From positions 62,001 to 126,000 of the forward strand of contig JAIQFZ010000006.1 in NCBI GenBank assembly GCA_020073015.1: a stretch of DNA of 64,000 bases, read 5' to 3'. Positions 10,334-51,369 of the stretch are shown one piece after another. The notes beneath the pieces were generated by a model. That model was not told the DNA's origin. It did no database searches and saw only the letters and a list, made by a program, of their open reading frames with translations. The DNA is from Terriglobia bacterium. GTDB lineage: Bacteria; Acidobacteriota; Terriglobia; Terriglobales; Acidobacteriaceae. A program made the position numbers and the translations under genes. Every line of letters begins with the position of its first letter. The stretch's first letter is position 1.

Positions 10334-10424
10334 CGTGCGAAGAAAGCATTGTACACGGTGCGTGCGAGCTTCAGCACTGAGGGCACGAAGGAACAAAGAA
10401 TCAGGTGGACGTGCGAAACTGTGC

Positions 10425-10967
10425 TCAAAAACCTAGCTTGTGCCGAATGCCGGAAAAGAAACGCGCCACCGGATTCCGGCGCGGAACCGGCGAGTGTGTG
10501 ACCTTGCCGGGGGATGGATCGGGAGGTAGTCGGTTTTCGAGTGATGACGTAGTCGTCGGAACGTCGCAGGAGGTACAAGTAACCGGGCCACCTCCTCCCC
10601 TGTACAAGGGCAGCATCACCCTGATTACGCGGTGAGTAGGTACATCCACAGACAGTCTTACGGTCTTGAATCCCTTCGACTCAACAAGCACCGCATAACT
10701 CCCCGCAGGCTGGTTCGGGAAACGGACTCGGCCGTTTGAATCGGTGACACTGTTCAGCACTCTATTGCCGTCTGGGTCGATCAGAGTCACCTTCGCGTTC
10801 AGAATTAAGGCTCCGACCGGATCCACAACCTCAACCTCGATTCCAGCCGTGGCCGGTTCAAGCTGCACTGGCGAAGAAAATGTCGGAGTATTCTGCGCGG
10901 CGGCAAAAATCAGGCCCATGGCCGCCGCAAGCGACACTGCTGCCGTAAAACGAACCCTGCATGACAT
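10425..10967 (-). CDS. Secreted carboxypeptidase-regulatory-like domain protein
   Basis: The 180-residue product has a signal peptide (MSCRVRFTAAVSLAAAMGLI, cleaved near FAAAQ) and one carboxypeptidase-regulatory-like beta-sandwich: GIEVEVVDPVGALILNAKV, DSNGRVRFPNQPAGSYAVLV and ESKGFKTVRLSVDVP. The domain is common in exported acidobacterial proteins, usually at the N-terminus of TonB receptors or alone. Residues 127-180 are Pro/Ser-rich with VTCTSCDVP and a basic tail. No enzymatic part is present. Function unknown. Confidence 0.8.
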   Translation of the reverse strand: MSCRVRFTAAVSLAAAMGLIFAAAQNTPTFSSPVQLEPATAGIEVEVVDPVGALILNAKVTLIDPDGNRVLNSVTDSNGRVRFPNQPAGSYAVLVESKGFKTVRLSVDVPTHRVIRVMLPLYRGGGGPVTCTSCDVPTTTSSLENRLPPDPSPGKVTHSPVPRRNPVARFFSGIRHKLGF

Positions 10968-32163: not shown

Positions 32164-34506
32164 TTGTCGCAGATCAACTCAAATCCCGTGAATGGCCGCC
32201 CCGCCTCGCCGGTTTATTGGCGCGTTGAAGGCAGTCTGCTGGAACTGACCACCGTCCGGCCGATCGCCTTCTTTGCCTGGAACAGCCAGACCTATGGATC
32301 GCGCTTAGTGCGCCGCGCCCTGGTGCTGTCGATGGCGCTGCTGCGTCCGTTTTTGTACGCGGCCAATCGGAAGGCGGCGACGCGGATCGTTTATGCGGTG
32401 TTGCGTGGTATTACCCGCGACCGGCTCGATCTGCTGGGCGAAGAAGAATTCGAATACAAACTGAAGCCGTTGCTGAAACCGGAAGGCGTGCGGCAACTGA
32501 AGGCGCTGCAGGCGACGGGCGCCAATGTGGTGCTGGTGAGCCAGGGGCTGGAGCATGTGATGCGTCCGCTGGCGCGGCATTTGGGGGTGCGCTGGATTAT
32601 CGCCAACCGGCTGGATTTTCGCGACGGCGTTTCGACGGGACGGCTGATGAGTCCGGTGATCCGGCCGCGAGGGTTGTTTGCGCGGATTCGCGAGGCGGGG
32701 CCGGATGGTCAGCAAAGTCCGGCGCGCTGGGTGCGGGCGCTCGGCCTGCGCGGACCGAAAGCGCTGGCCTCGGCGATTGTGCCGGTGGAGCGAGTGCAGC
32801 GAACACGGGTACGGCCGATTGTGTATTTCGACGAGCCGCGGCGGGCGGAGCCTCTTTCGGTGCGCAAAGCGCTGGAAGGAAAACGCGTGCTGCTGATCGG
32901 CGTCACAGGATTCATCGGCAAGGTGTGGTTGGCCAACACGCTGATGGATTTGCCGGAGATCGGAAAGCTGTACCTGCTGATCCGGCGACAGAAGACGAAT
33001 CCTGCTCAGAGCCGCTTCGAAAAGATGATCGAGGAGTCGCCGGTCTTCGATCCGCTGTTTGAGAAGTACGGCGATGGGCTGGGAGCTTTGCTGGCCGAGA
33101 AGATTGAGGTGATCGAGGGTGATGTTTCACAGCCCGGGATGGGTCTGGATGCGGAAACCACGACCCGGCTGCGCGCAGACCTCGATCTGGTTGTCAACAG
33201 TTCCGGGCTCACGGATTTCAATCCTGACTTGCGGGACGCGCTAGCAGTCAACGTCGATTCCACGTATCACCTGGTGGAATTCATTCGCGGATCTGAACAC
33301 GCGGCCCTGCTGCATCTTTCGACCTGCTACGTGGCTGGACAGCGGGATGGTGGCGTGGATGAGTGCGTGGTTCCGAATTACACGCCCTCGGGAGTGGCGG
33401 ACTTCGACGCGGAGAAAGAGTGGCACCGGCTGCATGAATTGGTGGAATCGGCGGAGGCTAGCGCCGAGGGGCCGGAAGTTACCGCGGAACTGACCAAGCA
33501 GGCCCTGGGCAAAGAGCACGCGGCGAAGGGTTTACACGGACAGGCGCTGGAGAACCAGGTTCGCAAGAATCGCATACGCTGGCTCAAGACGTATCTGACC
33601 GAAGCGGGCGTCAAGCGGGCCCAGGAACTGGGCTGGCCGAATACCTACACTTACACCAAGAGCCTGGCGGAGTCGCTGATCGCGAAGTACAGCAACGGGA
33701 TGCCGGTTGCCATTGTGCGTCCGGCGATTGTGGAAACTTCGGTTCAGAAGCCGTTCCGCGGGTGGAACGAAGGAATCAATACCTCGGCATCGCTCTCGTA
33801 CCTTCTGGGAACAGCGTTCCGGCAACTACCGTCAAACGAACGTAAGCGGCTCGACATCATTCCGGTCGATGCGGTCTGCGCGGGGATGACGTTGATTGCG
33901 GCGGCGCTGGTCGAGCGGCGGCACGATCCGGTGTATCAACTGGCAACCTCAGTAACGAATCCCTGCGACATGGGACGGTCGATCGAACTGACCTCGCTGG
34001 GACACCGCCGTCATTACCGCGCGCAGGAAGGATTGGAATGCTGGCTGCGGTTGCGCATGGATGCCATTCCGGTGTCCAAAATGCGCTACCGGCGGATGTC
34101 GGCGCCCGCGCAGAAACTGATCATCCAGTCGATTCAGCGGATCATGTCTCCGCTGCCGATGAAGAAGCCGCTCGCGAAGGCGGAACGCAACCTGGAGCGA
34201 GTGGAGAAACTGATCCAGTTGTTCGAGCCCTTCATTCTGCACAATGAGCATGACTTTATTGCCGATAATGTGGAGAAGCTCTCGCAGGCGCTGGTGCCCG
34301 AAGAAAAAGAAGCATTCGGGTACAACACGGCCAGCCTGGACTGGTGGGATTATTGGATCAACATTCACATTCCGGCATTGCGGCGGTGGACCTATCCACT
34401 GATTGAAGGGCGGCCGCTGGAAGCGCGGGCGCCGCGCGTGCTGCGGATGCCGGCAGCAGCGAATGGGGATGTCGTCAGGACCGGAACGAACGGGAGGACG
34501 TGGTGA
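32164..34506 (+). CDS. Fatty acyl reductase with degenerate HAD-IB N-domain
   Basis: The 780-residue product has two parts. Residues 1-210 resemble a SerB-like HAD-IB phosphatase: VVLVSQGLEHVMRPLARHLG matches motif II and its surroundings, and DGVSTGRL follows. Motif I, normally DxDGT, reads RVEGSLL, so the catalytic aspartate is missing. Residues 238-620 are an NAD-binding male-sterility (FAR) domain with VLLIGVTGFIGKVWLANTL, HLSTCYVAG and the YTYTKSLAE active site. A FAR C-terminal domain follows. FAR enzymes reduce acyl-CoA or acyl-ACP to fatty alcohol. The start is a TTG at 32164; an unusual choice, but no better codon precedes the homology. It opens a one-direction run of lipid-type genes. 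Confidence 0.88.
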   Translation: MSQINSNPVNGRPASPVYWRVEGSLLELTTVRPIAFFAWNSQTYGSRLVRRALVLSMALLRPFLYAANRKAATRIVYAVLRGITRDRLDLLGEEEFEYKLKPLLKPEGVRQLKALQATGANVVLVSQGLEHVMRPLARHLGVRWIIANRLDFRDGVSTGRLMSPVIRPRGLFARIREAGPDGQQSPARWVRALGLRGPKALASAIVPVERVQRTRVRPIVYFDEPRRAEPLSVRKALEGKRVLLIGVTGFIGKVWLANTLMDLPEIGKLYLLIRRQKTNPAQSRFEKMIEESPVFDPLFEKYGDGLGALLAEKIEVIEGDVSQPGMGLDAETTTRLRADLDLVVNSSGLTDFNPDLRDALAVNVDSTYHLVEFIRGSEHAALLHLSTCYVAGQRDGGVDECVVPNYTPSGVADFDAEKEWHRLHELVESAEASAEGPEVTAELTKQALGKEHAAKGLHGQALENQVRKNRIRWLKTYLTEAGVKRAQELGWPNTYTYTKSLAESLIAKYSNGMPVAIVRPAIVETSVQKPFRGWNEGINTSASLSYLLGTAFRQLPSNERKRLDIIPVDAVCAGMTLIAAALVERRHDPVYQLATSVTNPCDMGRSIELTSLGHRRHYRAQEGLECWLRLRMDAIPVSKMRYRRMSAPAQKLIIQSIQRIMSPLPMKKPLAKAERNLERVEKLIQLFEPFILHNEHDFIADNVEKLSQALVPEEKEAFGYNTASLDWWDYWINIHIPALRRWTYPLIEGRPLEARAPRVLRMPAAANGDVVRTGTNGRTW

Positions 34507-34552
34507 ACGTACTCATCTTCGGACTGAGTGTGCGTGATGGGTTCAGTCGTCC

Positions 34553-34625
34553 CTCCGCAGCAGGGCCCCAGTTGATCGATGCTGCTTACCGCAGCGCTGG
34601 ATGCGCTGTACCACCCAAACCTTTT
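34553..34625. repeat. Fragment of the CGCAGCGCTG repeat between two reductase genes
   Basis: GTCCCTCCGCAGCAGGGCCC and ACCGCAGCGCTGGATGCGCTGT with CCACCCAAA match the interior of the MITE-like elements at 3440 and 9351 but lack their ends. It separates the fatty acyl reductase gene from the second SDR gene and lies inside a short 47-codon frame (34503-34646) that I do not support. Confidence 0.5.
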
Positions 34626-34653
34626 ACTGAGCAACACGGGTTCTAAGTTCAAG

Positions 34654-35793
34654 ATGGCAATCTTCCTGACCGGGGCTACGGGCTACATCGGCGGACACGT
34701 GACCGCGAATCTGCTGGAGCGGCACGATGCGACGCTGAATCTGCTGGTGCGCGGGCGCGATCTGCATGACGCGGAAGTGCGGCTTTGGAACGCTCTCCAA
34801 CTCCACATGCCGTTCCCGACGTTTTATGAATACTTGCAGGCCAAGATCCGGATTTTTCTCGGGGACCTGACTGCTCCGCAGTTTGGCGTGGATCGAGACA
34901 GCTACGACCGCTTGGTGCACACGACCGATTCGATCATTCACTGCGCGGCGTCGCTGAACCGGAAATCGGAAAAAAGCTGTTTGAATGTGAATCTGCGCGG
35001 GACGCTGGAAGTCGTGCAGTTGGCGCGGCGTTCGCAGTACTACCACGGGTTGCGGCGCTTTTCGACTGTCAGCACGGTGGCGGTGGCGGGGAAGCGCAGC
35101 CACGAAGTTGTCACCGAAGACCGGTCGATTGAGTGGGAGCGGTCGGACTACGACCCCTACGCGCGCACGAAGAAGTTCTGCGAGCACATGGTGCGAGAGT
35201 TGCTCCCCGACATTCCGCTGACGATTTTCCGGCCCAGCATTGTACTGGGCGACAGCCGTTATCCGCAAACGACGCAGTTCGACATGGTGCGGTCGTTCGT
35301 GTTTCTCGCCGGTTTGCCGGTGCTGCCCTTTCGCTCGCACGACAAGATCGACATTGTGAATGTGGACTTCGTGGCGGATGCGATTTCCACGCTGCACATG
35401 AAGCCGAATCCACAGTACGATACGTATCATCTTTCCTCCGGCAACGGCTCGCAGACCTTTCAGGAATTGACGAAGGCGCTGGCCGCGGAGCAGAACGCGC
35501 GCGCGCCGCTGTTCATGCCAGTTCTGGAAGGCTCCTTCAGTGCAGTGGTCAATGCGCTCGCGAACGGCAAGGGGCGGGCCGGCCACGGCGCCGCGCTCTT
35601 GAAAGTGTTTCTGCCTTACCTGATCTGGAACACGGTGTTCGACAACACGCGCGTAACGGCCGAGTTGGGCAAACAGCCGGTGCCATTTTCGCAATACAGC
35701 TTTCCGCTGCTGCGCTTCAGCCGCCAGCACAATTTTCAATATCCCTACCAGGAGTGGCCCACCAGCACGAAGGCCGGAGGCTCCGCCGCATGA
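34654..35793 (+). CDS. Extended SDR reductase (thioester-reductase-like)
   Basis: The 379-residue product is an extended short-chain dehydrogenase: [20 protein letters not shown] with the nucleotide-binding TGxxGxx[27 protein letters not shown] and the catalytic [12 protein letters not shown]. The pattern resembles thioester reductase domains, which release an acyl chain from a carrier as an aldehyde or alcohol. ATG at 34654 gives the Rossmann start; upstream codons are repeat DNA. The stop overlaps the next start as ATGA. Substrate is inferred from the neighbouring acyl carrier protein and ligases. Confidence 0.85.
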
Positions 35794-37199
35794 TGGACTT
35801 TGTTTTGGAAGCCTGGGTCTCTACCATCATCGAGCAAAAGAAAGTGCAGTGGATGCTGGGGAAGCGACAGCCCTGGCAACCGGGCGAGAAACTCAAACTG
35901 CTGTTCGCGGGCTACAACGGCACCCGCAACACGGGCTCGGATGTGCGAGTGGAGGAAATGCTGCGGCAAGTCCGGCGTATTCTTGGTCCGGAGAATGTCG
36001 ATCTCAGCATGATGACGTTCAACTTCGACCGGTCGCGCGGATATTTCGAAGGAACATCACAGGTGCGGCTTCCGGATATTTTCCCGCCCTTCCTGGCGAA
36101 CGAAGTTCCGAAACATCATGGGGTGGTGGCGTGTGAAGGCTCGATGTTCAAGTCGAAGTTTGCGAATGCTCTGACGACCATGATGATTGGATCGTTGGGG
36201 ATCGCGGCGGCCGAAAATAAGCTCTCGATTGGGTACGGTGCAGAGGCGGGACTGATGGACCCGCTGGTGGCCAAGATGTGCGGGCGGTATTGCAGGAACT
36301 CGCTGGTGATCACGCGCAACGACGAGTCGCGGAAGATTCTTCGCGGGTTGGGTGTGCCTACAGAATTAGGCACCGACACGGCCTGGACGTTCGAGCCGCT
36401 GGGCGCGGAGTACGGACAGAAGGCTCTGCGCGATGTGGGCTGGGACGGGAAAACGCCGGTGCTGGCGGTTTGTCCGATCAATCCGTTTGAATGGCCGGTG
36501 AAGGCCTCGATCGGGAAGCTGGCGGTGCACAGCCTGACGGGTGTTTACAGGGAGAGCCACTATCGCGGGCCGTACTTCCACCATTCCGGCCCGGAGGCCG
36601 ATCGGGCCTACCAACATTATCTGACTTCGATTGCGAATGCGGTGGCGGCGTTCCGTCAGAGGAAGAACGTGTTCGTGATCATGGTGGCGACCGAGCGCAT
36701 GGACGCGCGTCCGTGCCGCAGGATTTCCGAGAAGCTGGGGGGCGTACCCGTGCTGACCTCCGACGACCACAACATGTATCAACTGGTCAGTATTCTGCGG
36801 GTTTGCCGGCTGATGGTTTCGTCGCGCTATCACGGGATCGTGACGTCGATGCCGGCGTTAGTACCTTCGGCCGGAATCACCATGGATGAACGCATCCGGA
36901 ACCTGATGAACGAGCGCGGGCACGAGGAGCTGCTGATGAATGTGACGGATGCCGATCTGGAAGAGCGGACGCTGGCGGCCCTGGAGATTCTGGAACGCGA
37001 CGGCGAGCGGATCGCCGATGGAATTGCTCGAACTGTGGTGCACAACTTGCGGCTCATGGCGCGCATGGGCGTGTACTTTGAGGAAGAAGTGCAGCGGCGG
37101 TATCCGGAATTTCCGACCCGGCGGGGAGAGTGGAGCTGGGAAGACTATCTGCCGCCGATGAGTGAGGGGCCGAAGCAGTTGGTCGCGGCGTACGGATAA
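35790..37199 (+). CDS. Polysaccharide pyruvyl transferase domain protein
   Basis: The family transfers pyruvate from phosphoenolpyruvate to a sugar, as CsaB does on cell-wall polymers. The 469-residue product has [58 protein letters not shown] and the C-terminal [25 protein letters not shown] lies 9 bases before the ATG at 35790, which overlaps the previous stop by 4 bases, so the two genes are translationally coupled. A pyruvyl transferase in a fatty-acid gene run is unexpected; either the lipid carries a sugar, or the enzyme has another acceptor. Confidence 0.85.
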
Positions 37200-37239
37200 C
37201 AGGGGCAGGGAGAACGCCGTGCTGCAACGGCGATCAGTT

Positions 37240-37313
37240 CAGCGTGTAGGGGTCCTTCGACTCCGTGGCCGATTCGCTTCGCAAATCAGCCACTCCGCTC
37301 AGGATGACAATCC
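37240..37313. repeat. Dispersed repeat TCCTTCGACTCCG...CTCAGGATGACAA
   Basis: GGGGTCCTTCGACTCCGTGG at the left and CCACTCCGCTCAGGATGACA at the right are partly inverted and belong to the 'ggatgacaa' family seen at 1073, 5250, 31347, 41966 and 53287. The repeat fills most of the gap before the first acyl-AMP ligase gene. Confidence 0.6.
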
Positions 37314-37323
37314 ATAAAAAGGG

Positions 37324-38979
37324 ATGACTTTTCTAGATCAAATCTTTGCCAGCCTGGAGAAGAGCGGCGACAACGTTGTTCTCCAGGAATTGCGTGATGG
37401 CGTGCCCACGGCGGTGACGGCGCGACAGTTGTTTGAGAAGGTGTTGGTGGCGCGGGCTTATCTGCGGCGCCTGCGGCTGAAGAAGGGCGATCGCTGCGGA
37501 CTTCTGGCGCAGAACTCAGTGCGATGGGTGGCCATCGACCTGGCCATCATGTCGGAAGGCCTGACGGCGGTTCCGCTTTACGCGCGCCAGGCTCCCGCCG
37601 AGCTGGTGGCGATGATGAAGGACTGCTGGCCATCGGTAATTGCGTGCGGCGACCCGTCGCTCGCCGATGCGATCCTCAAGGAGTGGCCGGAGGCGCCGCC
37701 GCTTTTTTGCTTCGAGAATGTCTTCACATCGTCGCGCGGGCCGGTGGAAAACCCTGCGCTCACAGTTGCCGACCAGAGCGTGGCGGCGATCATCTACACC
37801 TCCGGCACGTCGGGCGAGGCGAAAGGGGTGATGCTGTCGGCGGGCAATGTCGGCCACATGCTGGGCTGCACCTCGGGGCGGCTCGATCAATTGATGAAGG
37901 GGCGTCCGGGACAGGACGCAGTGTTCCACTACCTGCCATTTTGCTTCGCGGGCTCGTGGATCATGCTCCTCACGTGTTTATTGCGCGGCAGTAAAGTTAC
38001 GCTGAACACGGACCTGGGCAAAATTGCGGCCGACATGCGCTCGGCTGCGCCGGACTACTTCCTGAACGTTCCCGCGCTGCTGGAGCGGATGCGCAAGGCG
38101 GTCGACGAGCAACTCTGGAAGACGGGCGGCCTCCCGCTGAAGGTGTACCGCCAAGCGAAGGGCGCGTGGATGCGGCGGCAAGAAGGGAAGTCTCGCGCGG
38201 GGGATGGGCTGTGGCTGGCGCTGGCCAACCGCCTGGTGTTTCCCACGATCCGAAAGAAGATGATCGGTGGCCGGCTGCGTGCCCTGATTTGCGGCTCCGC
38301 TCCCCTGAATGTAGAAACGCAGCTGTTCTTTATGATGCTGGGCATCCCGGTGCTCCAGGTGTATGGCCTGACCGAGACGACGGCGATTTGCACGATGGAT
38401 GATCCCGACGGCGCGGTGGTGCCGGGGCGTGCGGGTCCGGCGATCGCCGGCATCGAGATGAAGGTTGGTGAAAACGAAGAGATCATCGTGCGCGGGCCGA
38501 ATATTTTTCCGGGCTACTGGAACCGTCCAGAGGAAACCGCGAAGGTGCTGCGCGACGGCTGGTTTCACACTGGAGATCAGGGTGAAGTGGACACGGTGGG
38601 GAACTGGAAGATCGTGGGGCGGATCAAGAACCTGATTATTCTGGGGTCAGGTCATAACATTGCGCCGGAACCGATTGAAGACAAGATTCTCCAACACGTG
38701 CCAGAGGCGAGCCAGGTGGTGGTGGTCGGCAATGCGCGCGGGTTTCTGACCGCGCTGGTCACAGGGAAGGTCAGAGGCGAGAAGGTGCAGGCCGCGCTTG
38801 ATGCGGTCAATCCGGACCTGCCGCACTACAAACAGGTGCGCGCGTTCCATATTGTGGACGAGGCCTTTACCATTGACAGCGGTTTGCTGACGGCGAACGG
38901 GAAGTTGAAGCGGGACTTGATTGCCGAGCGGTTTCGAAGCGAGATTGATGCAATGTACCGGACGGCGCAGACAGCATGA
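37324..38979 (+). CDS. Acyl-CoA/acyl-ACP synthetase (AMP-forming), first copy
   Basis: The 551-residue product is an ANL-superfamily ligase that activates a carboxylate as acyl-adenylate and passes it to a thiol. Motifs in order: AAIIYTSGTSGEAKGVMLS (P-loop), VLQVYGLTETTAICTM, GWFHTGDQGEVDTVGNWKIV and RIKNLIILGSGHNIAPEPIE. The catalytic lysine near the end is in TANGKLKRDLI. The sequence looks like long-chain acyl ligases. It overlaps the crotonase start by four bases (ATGA), so the two are coupled. Confidence 0.92.
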   Translation: MTFLDQIFASLEKSGDNVVLQELRDGVPTAVTARQLFEKVLVARAYLRRLRLKKGDRCGLLAQNSVRWVAIDLAIMSEGLTAVPLYARQAPAELVAMMKDCWPSVIACGDPSLADAILKEWPEAPPLFCFENVFTSSRGPVENPALTVADQSVAAIIYTSGTSGEAKGVMLSAGNVGHMLGCTSGRLDQLMKGRPGQDAVFHYLPFCFAGSWIMLLTCLLRGSKVTLNTDLGKIAADMRSAAPDYFLNVPALLERMRKAVDEQLWKTGGLPLKVYRQAKGAWMRRQEGKSRAGDGLWLALANRLVFPTIRKKMIGGRLRALICGSAPLNVETQLFFMMLGIPVLQVYGLTETTAICTMDDPDGAVVPGRAGPAIAGIEMKVGENEEIIVRGPNIFPGYWNRPEETAKVLRDGWFHTGDQGEVDTVGNWKIVGRIKNLIILGSGHNIAPEPIEDKILQHVPEASQVVVVGNARGFLTALVTGKVRGEKVQAALDAVNPDLPHYKQVRAFHIVDEAFTIDSGLLTANGKLKRDLIAERFRSEIDAMYRTAQTA

Positions 38980-39779
38980 GCGAGTTCAAAGGGAAAACGC
39001 TTTCGTGGCAAATCGTCAACGGTGCGGTGGAAGTCGCGCTGCATCGGGATCCCTGCAACGAGATTGGCTCGGCAACGCTGGAGGAGTTGGAGAAACTGGC
39101 GGCGGCGCTGCCGGAACTGTCCAAGGACGCGCATGCGGTGATTCTTTACTCGACCCTGAAGGCGGGATTTTCAGCCGGGGCGGATTTGCGCGAACTGTAT
39201 CAACGCATGCAGGGGATGGAGAAGGGCGCTGCGGTGCGCGGGGTGCGGGAGTTCCTGGAACGCATTCACCGTGTGATGAATACCTTGGATGCGGCGCCGC
39301 TGACGACGATTGCGGCCGTGCATGGGGTCACATTCGGAGGCGGGTTTGAGCTGGCACTGGTTTCGGACATCATCGTTGCGGATCGGATGGCGCGGTTTTG
39401 CTTTCCGGAATTGCGCTTGGGGTTGATCCCGGGTTTCGGCGGGATTCCCCGTCTGAAGCGGGATTTGGGAAATGCAGTGGTGCGCGACCTGCTGCTTACA
39501 GGACGCAGCTTCAACGTGATGAAGGCGCAGCAGATCGGGCTGGTCAGCCAGATTGCGGCGGAAGGGGAGGCGCTGAGAGTCGCGCGCGCTACGGCCAGCC
39601 AGGTGGGCAAGTTCGACCGGCGGACCGCGACGGCGGCGAAGGAATTCATGAAGCCGATTCCCTATGACGAACTGAAACGTGAGATCGAAATTTTCTGCGA
39701 CCTTTATTCGCGTCCCGCCGTCGAAGAAGGGCTGCGCAGGTTTGTAGAGAATGAGGGGCCCCAGCCGTACTTGCCCTAA
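38976..39779 (+). CDS. Enoyl-CoA hydratase/isomerase (crotonase) family
   Basis: The 267-residue product is a crotonase: oxyanion-hole segments STLKAGFSAGADLRELY and VHGVTFGGGFELALVSDI, and the catalytic-glutamate region FCFPELRLGLIPGFGGIPRL. The family hydrates, isomerises or decarboxylates acyl thioesters. The substrate cannot be deduced, but the position between an acyl ligase and an acyl carrier protein suggests a carrier-bound or CoA-bound chain. It starts within the stop of the ligase gene. Confidence 0.9.
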   Translation: MSEFKGKTLSWQIVNGAVEVALHRDPCNEIGSATLEELEKLAAALPELSKDAHAVILYSTLKAGFSAGADLRELYQRMQGMEKGAAVRGVREFLERIHRVMNTLDAAPLTTIAAVHGVTFGGGFELALVSDIIVADRMARFCFPELRLGLIPGFGGIPRLKRDLGNAVVRDLLLTGRSFNVMKAQQIGLVSQIAAEGEALRVARATASQVGKFDRRTATAAKEFMKPIPYDELKREIEIFCDLYSRPAVEEGLRRFVENEGPQPYLP

Positions 39780-39782
39780 TTT

Positions 39783-39812
39783 GTACTCGGTGATTGGAAA
39801 TTGGTAATTTGA
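39783..39812. repeat. AT-rich repeat word TTGGAAATTGGTAATTTG
   Basis: GTGATTGGAAATTGGTAATTTGAGAGG between the crotonase and the acyl carrier gene belongs to the word family found around ybaB (1002-1140, 1446-1540); the full word is given here in split form, GTGATTGGAAATTGG and TAATTTGAGAGG. Confidence 0.45.
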
Positions 39813-39826
39813 GAGGCGTCGCTTCT

Positions 39827-40075
39827 ATGTCCATGCCTACGACGGATCACACACTCGACGAAATCCTGAATCTTGCGGCTTCGCATTTTAAAGTGCCGCG
39901 GGAGAAACTCACTCCCGACGATGATTTTTTCAAGACGCTGGGCATTGACAGCCTGCAGGCGCTCGACTTACTCACACGCCTCGAGCACCACTTCCGCATC
40001 GAACTGCCGGATTACGAGCTGCAGGGGGTGTCGGATTTCCGGACGCTGGCGAGCCGAATCCAAGCGCGGCTATAG
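39827..40075 (+). CDS. Acyl carrier protein
   Basis: The 82-residue product is a stand-alone carrier protein: HTLDEILNLAASHFKVPREK, the phosphopantetheine-attachment motif LGIDSLQALDLLTRLEHHF with Ser in GIDSLQ, and IELPDYELQGVSDFRTLAS. It is not the primary AcpP, since no fatty-acid synthase genes are near. A dedicated carrier suggests the ligases and reductases of this run act on carrier-bound chains. ATG at 39827 or 39833 may be the start (MSMPTTDHTL). Confidence 0.92.
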   Translation: MSMPTTDHTLDEILNLAASHFKVPREKLTPDDDFFKTLGIDSLQALDLLTRLEHHFRIELPDYELQGVSDFRTLASRIQARL

Positions 40076-40078
40076 AAC

Positions 40079-40218
40079 TGGTCTTTCACCACAGAGACAC
40101 AGAGAGAACTTCTTGCCTGTCCTGATGGCGTCACTGCTTTGCCCGTCCTTTGCTGACGTTACGTTCTGATAGACTTTTCTTTCTCTCTGTGCCTCTGTGT
40201 CTCTGTGGTGAGCAACGA
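40079..40218. repeat. Hairpin repeat CACCACAGAGACACAGAG
   Basis: CACCACAGAGACACAGAGAG on the left and CTCTCTGTGCCTCTGTGTCT-CTGTGGTG on the right form inverted arms around a unique middle. Relatives occur at 44857-44939 and 49646-49690. The arms could make a long stem between the carrier gene and the second ligase gene. Confidence 0.75.
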
Positions 40219-40223
40219 TCTGA

Positions 40224-41933
40224 ATGCTTGATCTCCGTCAATACTCCAGCCTGGGTGCAGCGCTCAAGGATGCGTTGGAGCGCTGGCCGAATGAAACTTG
40301 CTTGATTGAAGCTGATCGCGATCGCGAGAAGGTTCGGCTGGCTTACTCCGATTTCAAAGAGATGGCGCGGCCTTTGTGCCGAGCGCTCGAGGACGCCGAC
40401 TTCAAGGCAGGGGACCGGGCGGCGATCATCATGACGAATCAGTCGAAGTGGCTGATTTCGGCGTACTCGATTTTCTTCTGCGGAGGCGTGCTGGTTCCGC
40501 TCGATTACAAGCTGACGGCGGCGGAACACTTGCAGTTACTGGCCCACTCGAAGGCGCGATTCCTGATTGTCGAATACTACTTGTGGCGGGCGATCACGCA
40601 GTCTCCGGAGTTTTCGAAGCTGACGACGGAGATTGTTCTGGTGACCGAGGCCCCGGTGGGCGCGGAGTTGCGGGGCGCGTACCGATGGGAGGAGTTCCGG
40701 CGCAAGGGGGAGCCGCAGTTCGTGGCGCGGCAGCGGGAGGACACAGCTTGCATTGTGTACTCGTCGGGTACGGGTGGGCGCCCGAAGGGGTGCGTGCTGA
40801 CCCATGACAACTACCTTGAGCAGTGTGCGGCGCTGACGGCGTGGTATCCGTTCTGGCCGGGCGTGCGATATTTGAGCATTCTGCCGACGAATCATGCGAT
40901 CGACTTCATGGTGGGATTCATCGGGCCGTTTGTGTGCGGGGCCTGTGTGGTGCATCTGCGGACGCTGCGTCCGGAGTTTGTGCGCGACGCGTTTGTGCGG
41001 TATCGCATCACGTATGTGGGCCTAGTACCGATGGTGCTGAAGAACCTGGAGCGCGGGCTGCGGGCGAAGTTTGACGAACTGAAGCCGAAGAAGCGATGGA
41101 TGCTCGACCGGCTGATTGCGCTGAACAAGATGCTGACCAAGAAGCGTCCGCGGGTACAACTGAGTCGGAGGCTGCTGCCGCAGGTGCACAAAGCGTTTGG
41201 CGGGGAACTGCTGGCCTTGATTGTGGGCGGCGCGTTCACGGACCCTTCGACCTTGCAGTTCTTTTACGATCTGGGTATTCCCGTGACTTGCGGGTACGGG
41301 CTGACGGAGGCTTGCACGGCGGTGACGCTCAACGATCTGAAGCCGTTTCGCGCCAACACGGTGGGGAAGCCGCTGCCGGGGAGCGAAGTGCGGATCCTGA
41401 GTCCAGATGGCGACGGGATTGGAGAAGTAGCGGTGCGAAGCCGGGCGGTGATGTCGCACTATCTGGATGATCCGGAGTTGACGGCGCAGACGATTGTCGA
41501 AGGCTGGCTGCTGACGGACGATCAGGGACGTTTCGAAGAGCACGGCCACTTGCAGTTGTTCGGGCGCAAGAAGAACATGATCGTCACCGAGGGCGGGAAG
41601 AACATTTATCCCGAGGATATTGAGGCGGTGTTCGATGGCCTGCCGGTGAAGGAGTACTGCGTTTTTGCCGCGAATTACGTGTGGCCGCAGAAGTCGCTGG
41701 GGAAAGAAATGCTGATGCTGGTGGTTCGGCTGGAACAGAATCAGCAGTTTGACGACCGCTTGCGCGAGGAAATTGTGGCACGGAACCGGCGGCTGGCGGA
41801 CTTTAAGCGCGTGGGCGGGTATCTGGTTTGGGAGAGGGATTTTCCGCGAACGGCGTCGTTGAAGATCAAGCGCGGGGAGTTGGCAGAGCAGCTTGGGAAG
41901 GGTGGGGGGCGGGATAGCGTGGTGGAAATCTAG
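40224..41933 (+). CDS. Acyl-AMP ligase, second copy
   Basis: The 569-residue product is a second ANL ligase: [58 protein letters not shown] and [20 protein letters not shown]. The catalytic lysine lies in [11 protein letters not shown]. It differs clearly from the first ligase (different loop sequences), so they are not recent duplicates and probably load different acids or different acceptors. Next to it is the carrier gene, separated by a hairpin repeat. Confidence 0.92.
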
Positions 41934-41959
41934 AGTGAATTCTTGCTGGGCGCGGAGAG

Positions 41960-42052
41960 AACGCAAGGTCCCCTTCGGCAAGCTCAGGGCAGGCTCTCCA
42001 CTTGCGCTTAGTCGCTTCGCTCCTGCGCGCAGCGGTCGGGATGACAATCATA
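41960..42052. repeat. Dispersed repeat ending in GCGGTCGGGATGACAATC
   Basis: CTTCGGCAAGCTCAGGGCAG at the left and GTCGCTTCGCTCCTGC, then GGTCGGGATGACAATC at the right are in the 'ggatgacaa' family. It lies between the second ligase gene and the diacylglycerol-kinase-like gene. Confidence 0.5.
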
Positions 42053-42072
42053 AATGAGTCTGTCCTGCGGGC

Positions 42073-43047
42073 TTGGTGTGTGACTTGAACGAGACTTTTC
42101 TGGCCATCATTAATCCGGCGGCGGGCGGCGGGCGGTGCCGACAGATGGTGGGCGCGGCGCTCGCACGGCTGCGGGCGGCGGGGATTGTGATTGAGGCCGC
42201 TGAAACGAACGCGGCCGGTGAGGCTGCGCAGATTGCGCGCGAGGCGTACCGGCGCGGCTGTCGGAAGTTTCTGGCGGTTGGCGGGGACGGGACTTCCTAC
42301 GAAATTGTGAACGGGTTGTTTCCGGAGAGCGGGATTGAGGTCCTGGGTGGCAAGTCTCAGGGAGTTTCGGGTAGCGAGGACGAACGCATCCCGACGCTCG
42401 GATTTCTCCCGCTGGGGTCAGGCAATTCTTTTCTGCGCGATTTCAGCAGCCGGAATTCCAGCGATCATGGTCTGGAACACGCGATGCGTGCCATCGAGGC
42501 ACAGCGCTCGAGGGCTTGCGATGTTTTTCGGCTAACCCATCGAGACGGAATCATTCATTACATCAACCTGCTGAGTGTCGGTTTTGCTGCCGATGTGGCG
42601 ATGTTGCGGCACCGGCGGTTTCTCGGCCTGGGGCAGTTCGGATATCTGCTGTCAGTCTTCTTGTGTCTGGCGCGGCTGAACCGCCGTCCGTTTCCCATGC
42701 GGGTGGACGGGCAGGGCGAATTCGACGCGCGGCGTTGTCTGTTCCTGACATTCAACAACAGCAAGTTCACGGGCGGCACGATGATGATTGCGCCGGACGC
42801 GGTCACCGACGATGGCTTGATTGAATATGTGCGCTGGGGACCGATTGGGCGGTTGGGGCTGATCCGGAATTTGCCCAGACTTTATGACGGCACGCATACG
42901 CGGCATCCGCTGGCGGAGCGGCGCGCGGCGCGGCAGGTGGAATTTCAGCTGGAGGGACCGGTGGACCTGATGGTGGATGGAGAGGTGCTCACGCTGCACT
43001 GTGAGCGCATTGACGTGTTGCCGTCGGCGCTGAGGGTCATGGTATAA
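42073..43047 (+). CDS. Diacylglycerol kinase-like lipid kinase
   Basis: The 324-residue product is in the DagK/YegS catalytic-domain family. Motifs are ETFLAIINPAAGGGRCRQMV, KFLAVGGDGTSYEIVNGLF (the nucleotide-binding GGDGT), PLGSGNSFLRDF and INLLSVGFAADVAML. Members phosphorylate diacylglycerol, ceramide or other lipid alcohols with ATP. The insertion GGKSQGVSGSEDERIP before TLGFLPLG is unusual. The TTG at 42073 starts the frame; GTG at 42076 is an alternative. It runs in the same direction as the lipid genes upstream and may belong to that run. Confidence 0.9.
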   Translation: MVCDLNETFLAIINPAAGGGRCRQMVGAALARLRAAGIVIEAAETNAAGEAAQIAREAYRRGCRKFLAVGGDGTSYEIVNGLFPESGIEVLGGKSQGVSGSEDERIPTLGFLPLGSGNSFLRDFSSRNSSDHGLEHAMRAIEAQRSRACDVFRLTHRDGIIHYINLLSVGFAADVAMLRHRRFLGLGQFGYLLSVFLCLARLNRRPFPMRVDGQGEFDARRCLFLTFNNSKFTGGTMMIAPDAVTDDGLIEYVRWGPIGRLGLIRNLPRLYDGTHTRHPLAERRAARQVEFQLEGPVDLMVDGEVLTLHCERIDVLPSALRVMV

Positions 43048-43056
43048 GAAAACGTC

Positions 43057-43488
43057 ATGTCACAGAAAAGAAGAGAAAAGCAGAAAGAAAAGTCAGGGGA
43101 CAATGGGGCAGGCCGGAACTGGAAGCGTACGGCACTGTACGGCGTGCTGATCGTGGCGGCGTTCGGGTTGGCCTACTATCTGGGCCACCGCAGCCAGCAC
43201 AAATACGACGCGTTCGCGCGATGCCTGGGCGATCGGGGCGTGAAGATGTATGGCGCGTGGTGGTGTCCGCACTGCGTGGAACAGAAGGAAAAATTTGGCG
43301 CGTCGTTTGAATACGCTCCGTATGTGGAGTGCGGCGTCAAAGGCGACCTCAAGGGCCAGAATCCCGTTTGTAAAGACGAAGGCATCAAACATTTTCCGAC
43401 GTGGCAGTTCCCGCCAATGGGCGAGCGCGTCGAGCGGGTGTTCAGCTTGGAGGAATTGAGTGATCGGACGGGGTGCTCGCTGCCGTGA
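43057..43488 (+). CDS. Membrane-anchored thioredoxin-like protein
   Basis: The 143-residue product has a basic N-terminus, one membrane segment (TALYGVLIVAAFGLAYYLGH) and a thioredoxin-like domain with the redox motif WWCPHCVEQKEKF. The segment KHFPTWQFPPMGER follows at the usual place. It probably works outside the membrane as a partner for the VKOR encoded next, which overlaps its stop by 4 bases (GTGA). Two additional cysteines (YVECGV, NPVCKDEG) may form a structural disulfide. Confidence 0.85.
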   Translation: MSQKRREKQKEKSGDNGAGRNWKRTALYGVLIVAAFGLAYYLGHRSQHKYDAFARCLGDRGVKMYGAWWCPHCVEQKEKFGASFEYAPYVECGVKGDLKGQNPVCKDEGIKHFPTWQFPPMGERVERVFSLEELSDRTGCSLP

Positions 43489-43916
43489 GTGAAAACATGC
43501 GGCGTCTGATGAGCATCGTGGCGATTCTAGCGGTATGCGGGGTGATTGTCTCTTCGGTTTCGCTGCAGCATCACTACGCGACTTCCAAAACGGAATACTG
43601 CGATCTTGGCGAGACGTTCAACTGCGACATCGTGAATCGCAGCGAATACTCGTCGATCCTGGGCATTCCCGTGGCGCTGATTGGCATGCTGGGATACGCG
43701 GCGGTGGCAGGACTGGCGACCGTGTATCGCGAACGTCGGGACACGCCCGCGCTGCTTTTGGGCGGAGCGCTGGCGGGGTTCGCGTTCGCGCTCTATCTGA
43801 CGTACATCGAGGGGCGGGTGCTGGGGGCGTGGTGCATCTTGTGCTTGAGTTCGCTGGCGTTGATTACGAGCATCACCCCGCTGTCCTTCGTGGTTTGGGT
43901 TAGGAGTCGGGATTGA
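43485..43916 (+). CDS. Vitamin K epoxide reductase (VKOR) family protein
   Basis: Bacterial VKOR passes electrons from periplasmic disulfide-forming proteins to quinone, replacing DsbB. The 143-residue product has four membrane segments, the outer cysteine pair as YCDLGETFNCDIVNRSEYS, and the quinone-proximal CxxC as GAWCILCLSSLALI. The GTG at 43485 overlaps the stop of the thioredoxin-like gene (GTGA); an ATG at 43497 is an alternative. Together the two genes make a complete oxidative-folding relay. Confidence 0.92.
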   Translation: MSENMRRLMSIVAILAVCGVIVSSVSLQHHYATSKTEYCDLGETFNCDIVNRSEYSSILGIPVALIGMLGYAAVAGLATVYRERRDTPALLLGGALAGFAFALYLTYIEGRVLGAWCILCLSSLALITSITPLSFVVWVRSRD

Positions 43917-48247: not shown

Positions 48248-48760
48248 CTACTGCGTGATCACGCCGCAAGCGATGCGGTCGCCCGCGTTGCCGGCCGGAT
48301 CTGTTTTCTGATCGTCGGCTTTCGCGTGAATGACGAGTGAAGTGCCACCGCTGCTGAAGAGCGAGTGACTGTCGTTGCCAAGGGTGACATCGTTATTCAC
48401 CATTGAGAATTTTGCTTTGCCTTTGGCCCCGACGGTGAAGTTGGGGTTATCGCCGTTGTGGTGTCCTTCCGGATTTTGCAATCCATGCTTCTTTAAGTCG
48501 GGATTGAAGTGCGGGCCGGCAGACTTGAAGTCCGGGGCATCGCACTTAGGTTCGCGGTGAAAGTGGATGGCGTGCTCGCCGGGCGGAAGGTTTTCCAGGT
48601 GAGCTTTGATCTCCACACCCTTCTTGTGTTCGGAAAGGGTAACGGTGCCAACGCTCTTGCCTTGGGCATCCGCGAGCTTGACCACCGTCTTGGCCGCGCT
48701 AGCTGCCGTGAGAGCGACGACGAGCAGGAGTGCGAGGGGAAACAAGCTGGTCGGTTTCAT
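48248..48760 (-). CDS. sodC: Cu/Zn superoxide dismutase
   Basis: SodC converts superoxide outside the cytoplasm. The 170-residue product has a signal peptide (MKPTSLFPLALLLVVALTAA, cut near ASA), copper ligands in HAIHFHREPKC, a zinc-region GPHFNPDLKKHG and HHNGDNPNF, and the later copper histidine in LVIHAKADD. The disulfide pair is KCD and IACGVI. ATG at 48758-48760 gives the leader; the open frame continues upstream without similarity. It converges on the BNR gene. Confidence 0.95.
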   Translation of the reverse strand: MKPTSLFPLALLLVVALTAASAAKTVVKLADAQGKSVGTVTLSEHKKGVEIKAHLENLPPGEHAIHFHREPKCDAPDFKSAGPHFNPDLKKHGLQNPEGHHNGDNPNFTVGAKGKAKFSMVNNDVTLGNDSHSLFSSGGTSLVIHAKADDQKTDPAGNAGDRIACGVITQ

Positions 48761-48919
48761 GGACGGATTATAAACAAAGTCAAGAATTCTCACCTTGCGC
48801 TCCGCAGCCTGCAAAGCTGAGGCCTGGAGTTCTCACGGGATCAACCCGAAGGGGCCGATGGTGCATCGGTCCCGCGCCGATTTTGCGGAGGGATCACAAG
48901 GCTTCGGTAGAATGACAGG

Positions 48920-49624
48920 ATGAAAGAGCAAGGGACGAACGCGGCGAAAACACTAGCCCAGGCGGGGTTGTTCACGGGACTTTCAGACGCAGAGCTGACC
49001 TTTCTTGCCCAGCGTGCGGTGCCACGGAAATTCTCCGGAGGCGAAATCGTATTTAGTGAAGGAGATCCCTGTGCCGGAATGTATGTGGTTGAATCCGGAC
49101 ACGTGCGGATTTTCAAGACCTCTCCCGGTGGACGTGAGCAAGTGCTGAGCATTGATGGCCCGGGCGGGTCGATTGCGGAATTGCCGGTGTTCGATGGAGG
49201 TAATTACCCGGCATCGGTTTCTGCCATGGAAGACTCGACGCTCTTGTTCATCAGTAAACAGGATTTTCAGGCGCTGTGCATGACGCACCCGCAGGTGGCG
49301 CTCAAGGTGCTGAGGGTGGTGGGCGCGCGGCTCAGAAAGCTCGTGGGGATCATCGAAGAGTTGTCGTTCACCACGGTCCGGCACCGGCTGGCGGCGTTCC
49401 TGGTGCGGATGGCGCAGAAGGAAGGCCAGCGTCTGAGCGAGGGCATTGAGATCACGTTGCCGGCCAGCAATCAGGAACTGGCGTCGCAGATCGGGACCGT
49501 GCGGGAACTCGTCTCGCGCAACCTCAGCCGTTTTCAGTCGGAGAAACTCATCCAGATGGATGGGCGGCGAATCGTCATTCCCAATCTCAAAGCACTTGAG
49601 GCGGAACTCGACGGCGCCGAGTAG
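48920..49624 (+). CDS. Crp/Fnr-family transcriptional regulator
   Basis: The 234-residue product has a cyclic-nucleotide-binding-type domain (EIVFSEGDPCAGMYVVESG, then GSIAELPVFDGGNYPASVSA) and a C-terminal Crp-type helix-turn-helix (SNQELASQIGTVRELVSRNL). Fnr's N-terminal iron-sulfur cysteines are absent. The protein may sense a small ligand, nitric oxide or heme. It is followed by the ScdA/YtfE iron-sulfur repair gene, and TGAC-AAAA-GTCA between them is a candidate site for it or a relative. Confidence 0.92.
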   Translation: MKEQGTNAAKTLAQAGLFTGLSDAELTFLAQRAVPRKFSGGEIVFSEGDPCAGMYVVESGHVRIFKTSPGGREQVLSIDGPGGSIAELPVFDGGNYPASVSAMEDSTLLFISKQDFQALCMTHPQVALKVLRVVGARLRKLVGIIEELSFTTVRHRLAAFLVRMAQKEGQRLSEGIEITLPASNQELASQIGTVRELVSRNLSRFQSEKLIQMDGRRIVIPNLKALEAELDGAE

Positions 49625-49645
49625 GGGGCCTTCTCCGAAGCGATC

Positions 49646-49690
49646 ACCACCGAGGGCACAGAGGGAGCCTGAGCTCTTTGTGGTTCTAAC
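49646..49690. repeat. Partial CACCACCGAGGGCACAGAGG repeat
   Basis: ATCACCACCGAGGGCACAGA-GGGAGCC and CTCTTTGTGGTTC are a shorter member of the family at 40079 and 44857. It lies just downstream of the Crp/Fnr-type gene. Confidence 0.45.
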
Positions 49691-49716
49691 GCCTTTCCTG
49701 CCTTATTTTCGTGGCG

Positions 49717-49728
49717 TGACAAAAGTCA
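49717..49728. promoter_or_regulatory. TGAC-N4-GTCA inverted repeat, candidate Crp/Fnr-type operator
   Basis: TGAC-AAAA-GTCA is a perfect palindrome 66 bases upstream of the ScdA/YtfE start. Crp/Fnr-family boxes often have two short inverted halves with a four-base spacer (TTGAT-N4-ATCAA for Fnr/NnrR). The halves here differ from those, so any link is inferred from position next to a Crp/Fnr-type gene. Confidence 0.4.
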
Positions 49729-49794
49729 TCGGCAGCAGTTGCCCCTTCCCCTAGAGTCACATGTGAGGCAGCCTTGAGCTGCGAGGAGACGCTG

Positions 49795-50526
49795 ATGACT
49801 GTGACGATCACCAAGAACGTTCGAGACTACGCGATTGAGACACCTCAGACGATCCCGGTTTTTGAGAAGCTGGGAATTGACTTCTGCTGTGGGGGAAACC
49901 GCCCGCTGGAAGAAGCGTGTGCGGCAGCAAACCTCAATCTGGATGAGGTGCTGAAGTCGCTGGAGGCGGCGCTGGCGGAACCGGCGCGCCCGAGCGACCG
50001 TAAACTCCGGTCGGGCTCACTGGCGGAACTGATCTCGCATATCGTGAAGACCCACCACGCTTACGTGCGGACGCAGATTCCGGAGGTGGAGCGGCTGATG
50101 GAGAAGGTTTACTCGAAGCATGGTCCGAACCATCCAGAACTGGCCCATATCCGCAGCGTGTTCCACGGGCTGGGACAGGAATTGAAGACGCATCTGATGA
50201 AGGAAGAGAACATTCTGTTTCCGTACATCGAGCGCATGGAAGAGTCCGTGGTTCAGCATGACCCAATTCTTCCGCCGCCGTTCGGAACGGTGGCGAATCC
50301 GGTACGCATGATGGAGCACGAGCACGACGATGCGGGCGCGGCACTCAAGGCGCTGCGCGAAACGAGCGCGGGCTACACGCCTCCAGCGGATGCGTGCACC
50401 AGCTTCCAGGCGCTGTACACGGCCCTGGAGAACTTCGAGAAAGACTTACACCAGCACATTCATCTTGAAAACAATGTTTTGTTCCCACGCGCGCAGCAAA
50501 TGGAAGCCAGCCACCAGCAGGCCTAG
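49795..50526 (+). CDS. Iron-sulfur cluster repair di-iron protein ScdA/YtfE
   Basis: ScdA/YtfE (Ric) proteins repair iron-sulfur clusters damaged by nitric oxide or oxidants. The 243-residue product has an N-terminal ScdA domain with GIDFCCGGNRPLEEAC, then a hemerythrin-like four-helix di-iron domain: SHIVKTHHAYVRTQIPEVER, HGLGQELKTHLMKEENILFP, MMEHEHDDAGAALKALRE and DLHQHIHLENNVLFPRAQQM. ATG at 49795 is preceded by GAGGAG. It lies directly downstream of a Crp/Fnr-type regulator. Confidence 0.93.
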   Translation: MTVTITKNVRDYAIETPQTIPVFEKLGIDFCCGGNRPLEEACAAANLNLDEVLKSLEAALAEPARPSDRKLRSGSLAELISHIVKTHHAYVRTQIPEVERLMEKVYSKHGPNHPELAHIRSVFHGLGQELKTHLMKEENILFPYIERMEESVVQHDPILPPPFGTVANPVRMMEHEHDDAGAALKALRETSAGYTPPADACTSFQALYTALENFEKDLHQHIHLENNVLFPRAQQMEASHQQA

Positions 50527-50541
50527 AAACGCGCAGACACC

Positions 50542-50570
50542 GGGCCGCCCGAGTCGGGGCGGCCCTTTTT
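50542..50570 (+). terminator. Rho-independent terminator after scdA/ytfE
   Basis: GGGCCGCCC-GAGTCG-GGGCGGCCC forms a 9-base stem with a 6-base loop and is followed by TTTTT and ATT. It begins 16 bases after the stop codon. Confidence 0.9.
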
Positions 50571-50707
50571 ATTGATCTCGATTCGCGTGCGGGAGTTCCG
50601 TCTAGCCGCGCAGAAGCTGTTGCAAAGCCGGCACCGGCGCAATAGAGTACCAGCTTGACGGCAAATCCATCTTTGTCCATAGAATTGGTTTCAACAGTCG
50701 ATTCAGA

Positions 50708-50800
50708 GGGCGAAGAAAGCAACCTAAGGGGCTAAAGCCCGTATTTTCTTCGGCTCTGAGCGGCACGGCTAAAGCCGTGCCCTTCCCAAAGCCGTTTCTT
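50708..50800. repeat. Palindromic 'GGCTAAAGCC' intergenic repeat, copy 2
   Basis: GGGGCTAAAGCCC, then GGCTCTGAGC, GGCACGGCTAAAGCCGTGCC and CTTCCCAAAGC match the unit at 262-345 in order and spacing. It lies between the ScdA/YtfE terminator and the Rrf2 gene, in an otherwise empty gap (50571-50874) apart from an upstream region for Rrf2. Confidence 0.75.
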
Positions 50801-50874
50801 GCAGCCAGTTGTGGAGATGGGACTTGCGGTAGAGATACTATGATCACGGCCGGATACTCCTAGAGGACACGAGA

Positions 50875-51369
50875 TTGAAGATTTCGCAAAAGGGACTCTA
50901 TGCGTTGCAGGCAATGATGACGCTGGGACGCCAGTATGGCAGCGAAACCGTCAAGATTCGGGATATCGCTTCGGACAGCGACCTGCCGGAAAAGTTTCTT
51001 GAACTGATTCTGCTGGAGCTCAAGAATGCCCGCATTCTAGAAAGCGTGCGGGGCGCCAAGGGCGGCTATCGTTTGCGGCGCCCGCCGTCGGAGATCCGGC
51101 TCAGTGAAATCATTCGCTTGCTCGACGGACCGTTGGCCCCATTTGCGGACGCCGAGCATCTCCGGAGCCTGATCGCTACCGATCCCGATCATCGCTCGCT
51201 CTACCAGGTGTTTCTGGACGTGCGCGACGCAGCCGCGAAGATCCTGGAGAGCACAACGGTCGCTGATATCATTGCCTCGCCCTCAGGATCGGGCAAACGC
51301 ACGCGCCGCAACCGGAAACACGGTACGAGCGGTCGTCCGATGATCGTTGAGAGTGGCGCGAAGAGTTAG
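50875..51369 (+). CDS. Rrf2-family transcriptional regulator without cysteines
   Basis: The 164-residue product has the Rrf2 winged helix: MKISQKGLYALQAMMTLGRQ, IRDIASDSDLPEKFLELILL, NARILESVRGAKGGYRLRRP and IRLSEIIRLLDGPLAPFADA. IscR, NsrR and RsrR use three cysteines to hold an iron-sulfur cluster; this protein contains no cysteine at all. It therefore does not sense through such a cluster. TTG is the start, preceded by GAGG. Its neighbours are ScdA/YtfE upstream and an ABC-F gene downstream, which begins 17 bases after its stop. Confidence 0.9.
   Translation: MKISQKGLYALQAMMTLGRQYGSETVKIRDIASDSDLPEKFLELILLELKNARILESVRGAKGGYRLRRPPSEIRLSEIIRLLDGPLAPFADAEHLRSLIATDPDHRSLYQVFLDVRDAAAKILESTTVADIIASPSGSGKRTRRNRKHGTSGRPMIVESGAKS

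Follow-up and report, generated by a model that had tools for sequence, protein, structure and literature searches.

An eight-gene run and its conservation

The window analysed here is a stretch of 64,000 nucleotides that makes up part of one contig in the 5.5 Mb draft genome (99% complete) of a Terriglobia bacterium, and its near relatives are uncultured Terriglobia and Acidobacteriota. Between positions 32164 and 43047, eight co-oriented open reading frames, all on the forward strand, fill the sequence in the order HAD-FAR, SDR, PYR, ACS1, ECH, ACP, ACS2 and LK. HAD-FAR (32164-34506; 780 aa) is a fusion in which Pfam places a degenerate HAD-like domain (residues ~40-178) ahead of NAD_binding_4 (245-573) and FAR_C/Sterile (672-742) domains, FAR standing for fatty acyl reductase. 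SDR (34579-35793), a thioester-reductase-like short-chain dehydrogenase/reductase, matches NAD_binding_4 and has no FAR_C match, and PYR (35790-37199; 469 aa) is a divergent member of the polysaccharide pyruvyl transferase family (PS_pyruv_trans, PF04230). ACS1 (37324-38979; 551 aa; AMP-binding, PF00501, with AMP-binding_C_3) and ACS2 (40224-41933; 569 aa; PF00501) are both AMP-forming acyl ligases; between them lie ECH (38976-39779; 267 aa), a crotonase/enoyl-CoA hydratase (ECH family) in which both catalytic Glu residues are present, and ACP (39794-40075; PP-binding, PF00550), an acyl carrier protein with its phosphopantetheine serine. The last gene, LK (42073-43047), encodes a lipid kinase of the YegS/DAGK type (PF19279 and PF00781; DAGK and YegS_C).

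These are the families that an original prediction, made from the letters of the DNA, had named, and Pfam agrees with it gene by gene. The two 4-base overlaps it had listed are both real, the end of SDR (35793) passing the start of PYR (35790) and the end of ACS1 (38979) passing the start of ECH (38976). In the case of PYR, the listed reading frame opens at 35133, which is too early, and the conserved start at 35790 gives the protein of 469 aa. The true start of SDR may lie at 34654 (Met26 of the listed frame), because an open reading frame of 374-383 aa, as found in 15 of 20 relatives (loci L039-L058), fits such a start.

A search with the HAD-FAR protein of 61 genomes returned matches in 38, of which 34, the window's own included, reached at least 52% identity, and four (G048, G052, G053 and G060) held only diverged and partial matches. 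Of the 33 other genomes that matched strongly, 20 supplied loci for comparison, and the gene maps of these loci, like those of the others discussed here, were made with tblastn. All eight genes were present in each of the 20 relatives and collinear in 19, the exception being L046, where the ACS2-LK part is inverted. When named genomes were scanned with a PYR profile, 322 stretches were confirmed. Among the best 80 of these, all Acidobacteriota by title, 51 loci have the whole set in collinear arrangement, another 24 run into contig ends but show no departure as far as they reach, and five depart from the order (L077 and L135 are rearranged, L083 lacks SDR upstream, L086 lacks ACS2 downstream, and L100 has nothing after ECH). 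Several of the named loci (L063-L142) come from genomes that also carry one of our G handles, and the loci are not all distinct genomes. The order is kept across families at about 50-70% protein identity, with junction gaps that are often below 100 bases. Because gene set and order are the same in relatives, the eight genes are a real unit and their grouping is not due to chance. The original prediction had proposed just such a comparison of gene order, and had staked its grouping on co-occurrence in relatives, which is what we find.

Two irregularities among these loci are worth recording. In L046/L077 and L135/L188 the operon is rearranged, with its second part inverted; L046 and L077 lie on contigs of equal length, and so do L135 and L188, so that these are probably two rearrangement cases rather than four, and the inversion could be real or an effect of assembly. 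In L047, the ECH matches (9938-10640) fall into two pieces with 32 query residues unmatched, which reflects either a damaged gene or an error in the draft sequence.

Outside the window's family the run has a ninth member, as a gene for a PlsC-type acyltransferase lies directly 3' of LK in 25 of the 26 loci in which LK is in view (L056-L058, L159, L189-L203, L205, L206, L232, L235, L238 and L239; identified as PF01553 in L056, L057 and L159). L161 is the sole exception, with about 2 kb available beyond LK. This tight placement points to phosphatidic-acid-type finishing of the product. The window, L039-L055, L187-L188 and the best 80 named loci, many of which are cut by contig ends, yielded no PlsC gene after LK. 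Five PF01553 matches lie at other places in the window's genome, and the best of the four that were compared is ~30% identical to the operon PlsC. In two relatives a KASIII (FabH-like) gene is inserted between ECH and ACP (L161:8140-9129 and L166:11217-12218), so that the earlier remark that there is no ketosynthase holds for the window but not for these two operons.

Broken operons can fall into a HADFAR-SDR-PYR-ACS1 and an ACP-ACS2-LK-PlsC module. Both modules are retained in G552, G430, G385 and G377; the second one was not found in G189 or G442. ECH accompanies either module or stands alone, and in 6 of 11 operon genomes it is not beside ACS1; an orthologue (63-100% identity) was nonetheless present in all 11 operon genomes tested. 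No ECH match at E <= 1e-40 was seen in any of four genomes that carry FARs resembling those of the elb ether-lipid operon and do not carry the operon described here.

A PYR match at E <= 1e-10 occurs in 14 of 396 sampled genomes of the phylum, one of them (G188) holding only a distant relative. For ACS1, a match to which does not by itself prove the operon, a hand count gave orthologue-level matches (best E <= 1.3e-100) in 110 of 399 genomes of the class, divided by family into 75 in f7, 16 in f1, 11 in f9, five in f8, two in f99 and one in f5, with none in the sampled members of f2, f3, f4, f6, f10 and f97, nor in 17 single-contig genomes of f1. Because no orthologue-level ACS1 match was seen in sampled f6 and f97, nor in those 17 genomes, the operon cannot account for every ether-lipid producer. 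The operon as source of the Solibacter tetraethers was considered and dropped, and we make no claim in that regard.

Catalytic residues and the pyruvyl transferase family member

Residue counts given below refer to matches of at least 45% identity among 137 loci, some genomes being represented twice. With a profile built from an alignment of 14 sequences, the nearest solved relative of HAD-FAR is the fatty acyl-CoA reductase 7eoz (E 1.1e-58). The protein has the features of an alcohol-forming FAR, scoring 178 bits against NAD_binding_4 (cut-off 20.1) and 39.8 bits against FAR_C (cut-off 35.4), and Y495 and K499 of the YxxxK motif are invariant in the alignment. In its HAD domain, the first Asp of motif I is replaced by Arg in 106 and by Ser in three of 121 loci (12 unread), and the second position is Glu in 106 and Asp in four (11 unread). 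Since the Asp nucleophile has been lost, this domain is probably not a phosphatase. The separate HADs of the elb-like loci L060-L062 keep DxDGT, and a stretch around (N/S)xLEF...ATG is, by eye, common to both.

In the remaining proteins, the key residues are conserved. The Tyr and Lys of YxxxK in SDR are kept in 125 of 127 loci (two unread); its nearest solved relatives are MxaA and the reductase domains of polyketide synthases, carboxylic acid reductases and nonribosomal peptide synthetases, and its best NCBIfam match is the thioester reductase model TIGR01746, at 130.4 bits and below the cut-off of 213.35. A head-to-head condensation of the OleABCD kind was considered and dropped, its sole hint being a 25.7-bit OleD match of SDR. 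The C-terminal Lys of ACS1 is kept in 118 of 125 loci (seven unread) and the Lys of ACS2 in 104 of 109 (five unread). In ECH, E125 is found in 116 of 118 loci (two unread) and E145 in 114 (three unread, plus one stop), the ACP Ser in 113 of 113, and the GGDGT Asp of LK, whose nearest solved relatives are DgkB and YegS, in 101 of 101. Much as had been predicted, the parts would suit a pathway that activates acyl chains, loads them on a carrier, reduces them to fatty alcohols and phosphorylates a lipid.

At E <= 0.001, the genome contains no PF04230 match other than PYR. It scores 30.6 bits against that family (cut-off 25.3) and 50.4 bits against the CsaB model TIGR03609, far under the cut-off of 213.1. 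R176, R346 and H348, matched by motif spacing to R148, R306 and H308 of CsaB, are each present in 129 of 129 loci. PYR was also aligned with the 10 readable of 12 family members, E. coli WcaK included and L215 and L219 left out. In this alignment the Arg before the D/E-xx-S stretch is present in 10 of 10, the RxH motif has Arg in nine and Lys in one, with its His in all 10, and PYR has an Arg where all 10 have a Lys. For CsaB, the consulted part of a mutant study reports that K328R remains partly active and shows R148 and H308 to be important (PMC10435577).

The AlphaFold model of PYR (pLDDT 79.5) is GT-B-like. The protein also has an N-terminal hydrophobic helix, which in the model would be compatible with a membrane-bound acceptor, without constituting proof of one. 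The Pvg1p structure of S. pombe (5ax7) was absent among the 50 top rows of both structure-match lists, a result that excludes nothing. A sequence search of solved structures with PYR gave one match only (E 0.31), and a plasmid search two weak ones (25% identity over 32% of the query). A second, diverged relative (36% identity) lies in G120 at L167:9985-11574, adjoining patatin and MFS genes, and a distant one, L168, has B12-binding and radical SAM neighbours; the contexts of these two relatives gave no clue.

A candidate ether-lipid route and its rivals

We consider it reasonably probable that the product of the operon is a phospholipid derived from a fatty alcohol, be it of the ether type or another. 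Among the products suggested earlier (a fatty aldehyde, a fatty alcohol or an ether-type membrane lipid, perhaps glycosylated and pyruvylated), the ether-type membrane lipid is the best predicted class. The sugar finds no counterpart in the locus, as none of the eight genes gives a glycosyltransferase family match at E <= 0.001, and PYR need not decorate a sugar. The original prediction, in sum, recognised the unit and its parts, and overlooked the degenerate HAD domain, the ninth gene for PlsC, the resemblance to elb and the KASIII gene in two relatives.

As a working model, which we favour only tentatively, the operon would yield an ether-type glycerophospholipid from ordinary fatty acids; each substrate and step of the model is what we infer, while gene set, conservation, families and residues are what we observed. 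ACS2, together with ACP, would activate and load a fatty acid, and HAD-FAR would reduce the loaded chain to a fatty alcohol. PYR, acting as its family does, would then move the enolpyruvyl unit of phosphoenolpyruvate (PEP) onto that alcohol, which would create the ether bond in the form of a 2-alkoxyacrylate. ACS1 would turn the carboxylate of this compound into a thioester, and ECH would hydrate the terminal C=C to give a 2-O-alkylglyceroyl thioester, a step for which the hydration of methacrylyl-CoA by crotonases is a precedent. SDR would reduce the thioester to 2-O-alkylglycerol, and LK would phosphorylate it, a kinase being needed because the proposed product would arise unphosphorylated. 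PlsC would finally acylate the product, a task that in the window's lineage might fall to a general acyltransferase instead. Such a scheme would employ every gene, with the HAD domain left without an assigned role. That PEP, and not glycerol 3-phosphate or dihydroxyacetone phosphate (DHAP), supplies the glycerol carbons as well as the ether bond is the more doubtful part of the model, and we regard it as possible although on the unlikely side. The working model is favoured by the conserved gene order, by PlsC directly after LK outside the window's family, by the nearest relatives of FAR and SDR, by the PEP-site residues that PYR retains, by the orthologues and catalytic Glu residues of ECH, by the persistence of both modules in broken operons, and by the finding of no AGPS-like protein in the genome. 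Also in its favour, 2-O-monoalkyl glycerols occur in bacteria, and, in the portion of the literature source used here, the formation of the ether bond was called unknown in 2017 (PMC5552659).

Several points weigh against this model. PYR is distant from characterised pyruvyl transferases (50 bits, compared to a CsaB cut-off of 213), the position matching CsaB K328 is Arg (R368) in 128 of 129 loci with one unread, its glycine-rich loop reads CEGS, and comparison of the predicted structure shows a GT-B-like fold only, with epimerases and glycosyltransferases ranking top. To our knowledge, there is no precedent for a simple aliphatic alcohol as pyruvyl acceptor, and we know of no product, mutant or assay for the operon. 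The window's lineage is without the operon PlsC, five of the best 80 named loci break the gene order, and the operon-free controls for ECH consist of the four elb-like genomes only. Furthermore, the same genome encodes two DUF2229 proteins of the Ger/PlsA kind (L207 and L208), one of them with an added BcrAD_BadFG domain, that could form ether bonds by another route, along with two FAR-less ElbD-like ligase-ACP-acyltransferase proteins (L181:6048-8585 and L182:8971-11595, both on the reverse strand). With these proteins at hand, the operon is less needed as the sole source of ether bonds.

The rival that carries most weight, even if we deem it rather improbable, is a split version of the elb pathway, in which the ether step is not yet known or is Ger-like. 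There, PYR would act on the head group or on a different hydroxyl, and ECH and ligase number two would do no more than shape the acyl chain. The domain content of the operon fits elb as far as the partial description goes (PMC9131029), elb-like loci are close in the tree (L062 in the same class, L059 in the same order), and the DUF2229 proteins are available in the genome. On this account, however, ECH, ACS1 and the kinase have no required role, in spite of the constancy of ECH in the operon genomes, the FAR is only about 30-34% identical to those of the elb-like loci compared (L059-L062), and the HAD nucleophile is gone. A slightly weaker case can be made for a lipid of fatty alcohol or hydroxy fatty acid without any ether bond, for example an alkyl lipid or a glycolipid that carries pyruvate; LK would then use diacylglycerol recovered from membranes. 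Members of the PYR family usually pyruvylate glycans, and the recycling of diacylglycerol or lysolipid is within the reach of YegS/DAGK kinases and PlsC; the conserved genes, however, include no glycosyltransferase or exporter family, and the tight placement of PlsC after LK in 25 of the 26 loci from other families also speaks against this reading.

We see very little likelihood that the locus serves fatty alcohol or wax-ester metabolism amid unrelated neighbours. The FAR is alcohol-forming by domain content, but the gene set gives no wax synthase family match and its genes travel together across several families. Least probable by far is that unrelated genes came together by accident. Several junctions inside the window do have gaps of 70-150 bases, which would be compatible with this reading, as would the lack of a clear promoter or terminator pattern in a scan that was uninformative (two promoter-like sites compared to a shuffled mean of 4.0, and eight terminator-like sites compared to 12.9); the conservation of gene order in relatives, down to about 50-70% protein identity across families, nevertheless leads us to reject it.

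Ether lipids, and the tetraethers built from them, are used as temperature and pH proxies, and the elb, ger and agps genes explain only part of the producers, according to the portions of two studies drawn upon here (PMC11868695, PMC10087280). Going by its sequence, the conserved nine-gene set with intact active sites offers a concrete candidate for the making of ether lipids by soil acidobacteria. Its odd parts suggest a candidate new way to form the bacterial ether bond and, should the PEP route be true, the phospholipid backbone would be drawn from a source other than glycerol 3-phosphate.

As for the surroundings, the co-oriented run extends past LK into genes for a glutaredoxin-like protein (43057-43488) and a VKOR protein (43473-43916), together spanning 43057-43916 on the forward strand; they lie outside the core, and not all members of the window's family have them behind LK. 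Further downstream (48248-51369), genes for a Cu/Zn superoxide dismutase, a Crp-type regulator, a ScdA_N/hemerythrin (RIC-type) protein and an Rrf2 regulator are clustered, perhaps as a nitrosative/oxidative stress group.

Comparison with known systems

In the open-licence literature, judged mostly from listings, we found no publication that describes this gene set or an ether lipid made from PEP. The closest known system is the elb operon (elbA-elbE) of Myxococcus xanthus, given in the part of its description that we cite as SDR, HAD, unknown protein, FAR-ACS-ACP-AGPAT and SDR, and tied to alkyl ether lipids (PMC9131029). It likewise brings together HAD, FAR, acyl ligase, ACP, an AGPAT-type acyltransferase and SDR and, by that description, the HAD would correspond to ElbB, the FAR, ligase, carrier and acyltransferase functions to ElbD, and SDR to ElbE or ElbA (PMC9131029). 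With PlsC behind LK in 25 of 26 loci, other families than the window's encode all the ElbD domain functions together; the window itself lacks an operon acyltransferase. The functions of ElbD are encoded by separate genes in the window and its relatives, where no one-polypeptide ElbD (FAR, ligase, ACP, acyltransferase) was encountered, and the HAD is fused to the FAR and devoid of the motif-I Asp that a catalytic HAD would have, as ElbB may be. Compared to elb, the operon has PYR, ECH, the lipid kinase and one further acyl ligase as additions. Because a one-protein ElbD and an active HAD are both missing, we set the operon apart from elb, and membership in elb was rejected as a full account of it.

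Elb-like loci do occur nearby in the tree. L059, from the same order, encodes a protein of 1468 aa that unites the four ElbD domains (FAR, ligase, ACP and acyltransferase), and L062, from the same class, encodes a FAR, an ACP-ligase-acyltransferase, PlsY and an intact HAD. In both, a LarA-like (Lar_N, PF09861) protein of about 580-590 aa is encoded beside the elb-like genes (L059:376-2154 and L062:14501-16237). The elbD-like NRPS-like clusters of sponge Acidobacteriota and Poribacteria, in part from the same phylum, also combine FAR, ligase, thiolation and acyltransferase functions; unlike the operon, they do so in one large core gene, and the portion of the report consulted mentions no pyruvyl transferase, crotonase or kinase (PMC9426513).

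With the AGPS/FAR1 plasmalogen route of animals and of the MXAN_1676 operon, the window's operon shares a FAR-made fatty alcohol as presumed ether precursor. Unlike that route, it includes no DHAP acyltransferase, and AGPS, sought as FAD_binding_4 + FAD-oxidase_C without Fe-S domains, was not found in the 99% complete draft, where the sole FAD-oxidase_C (PF02913) match is fused to Fer4 and CCG domains. The Ger/PlsA system has its counterpart in the DUF2229 proteins of the same genome; these lie outside the operon, and Ger/PlsA converts an ester to an ether bond, as stated in the part of the source used (PMC11868695). Finally, PYR differs from CsaB, Pvg1p and WcaK in its distance from them, its Arg at the K328 position, its CEGS loop and an operon free of glycan genes, and yet it shares with them the family, the Arg of the PEP site and the RxH motif.

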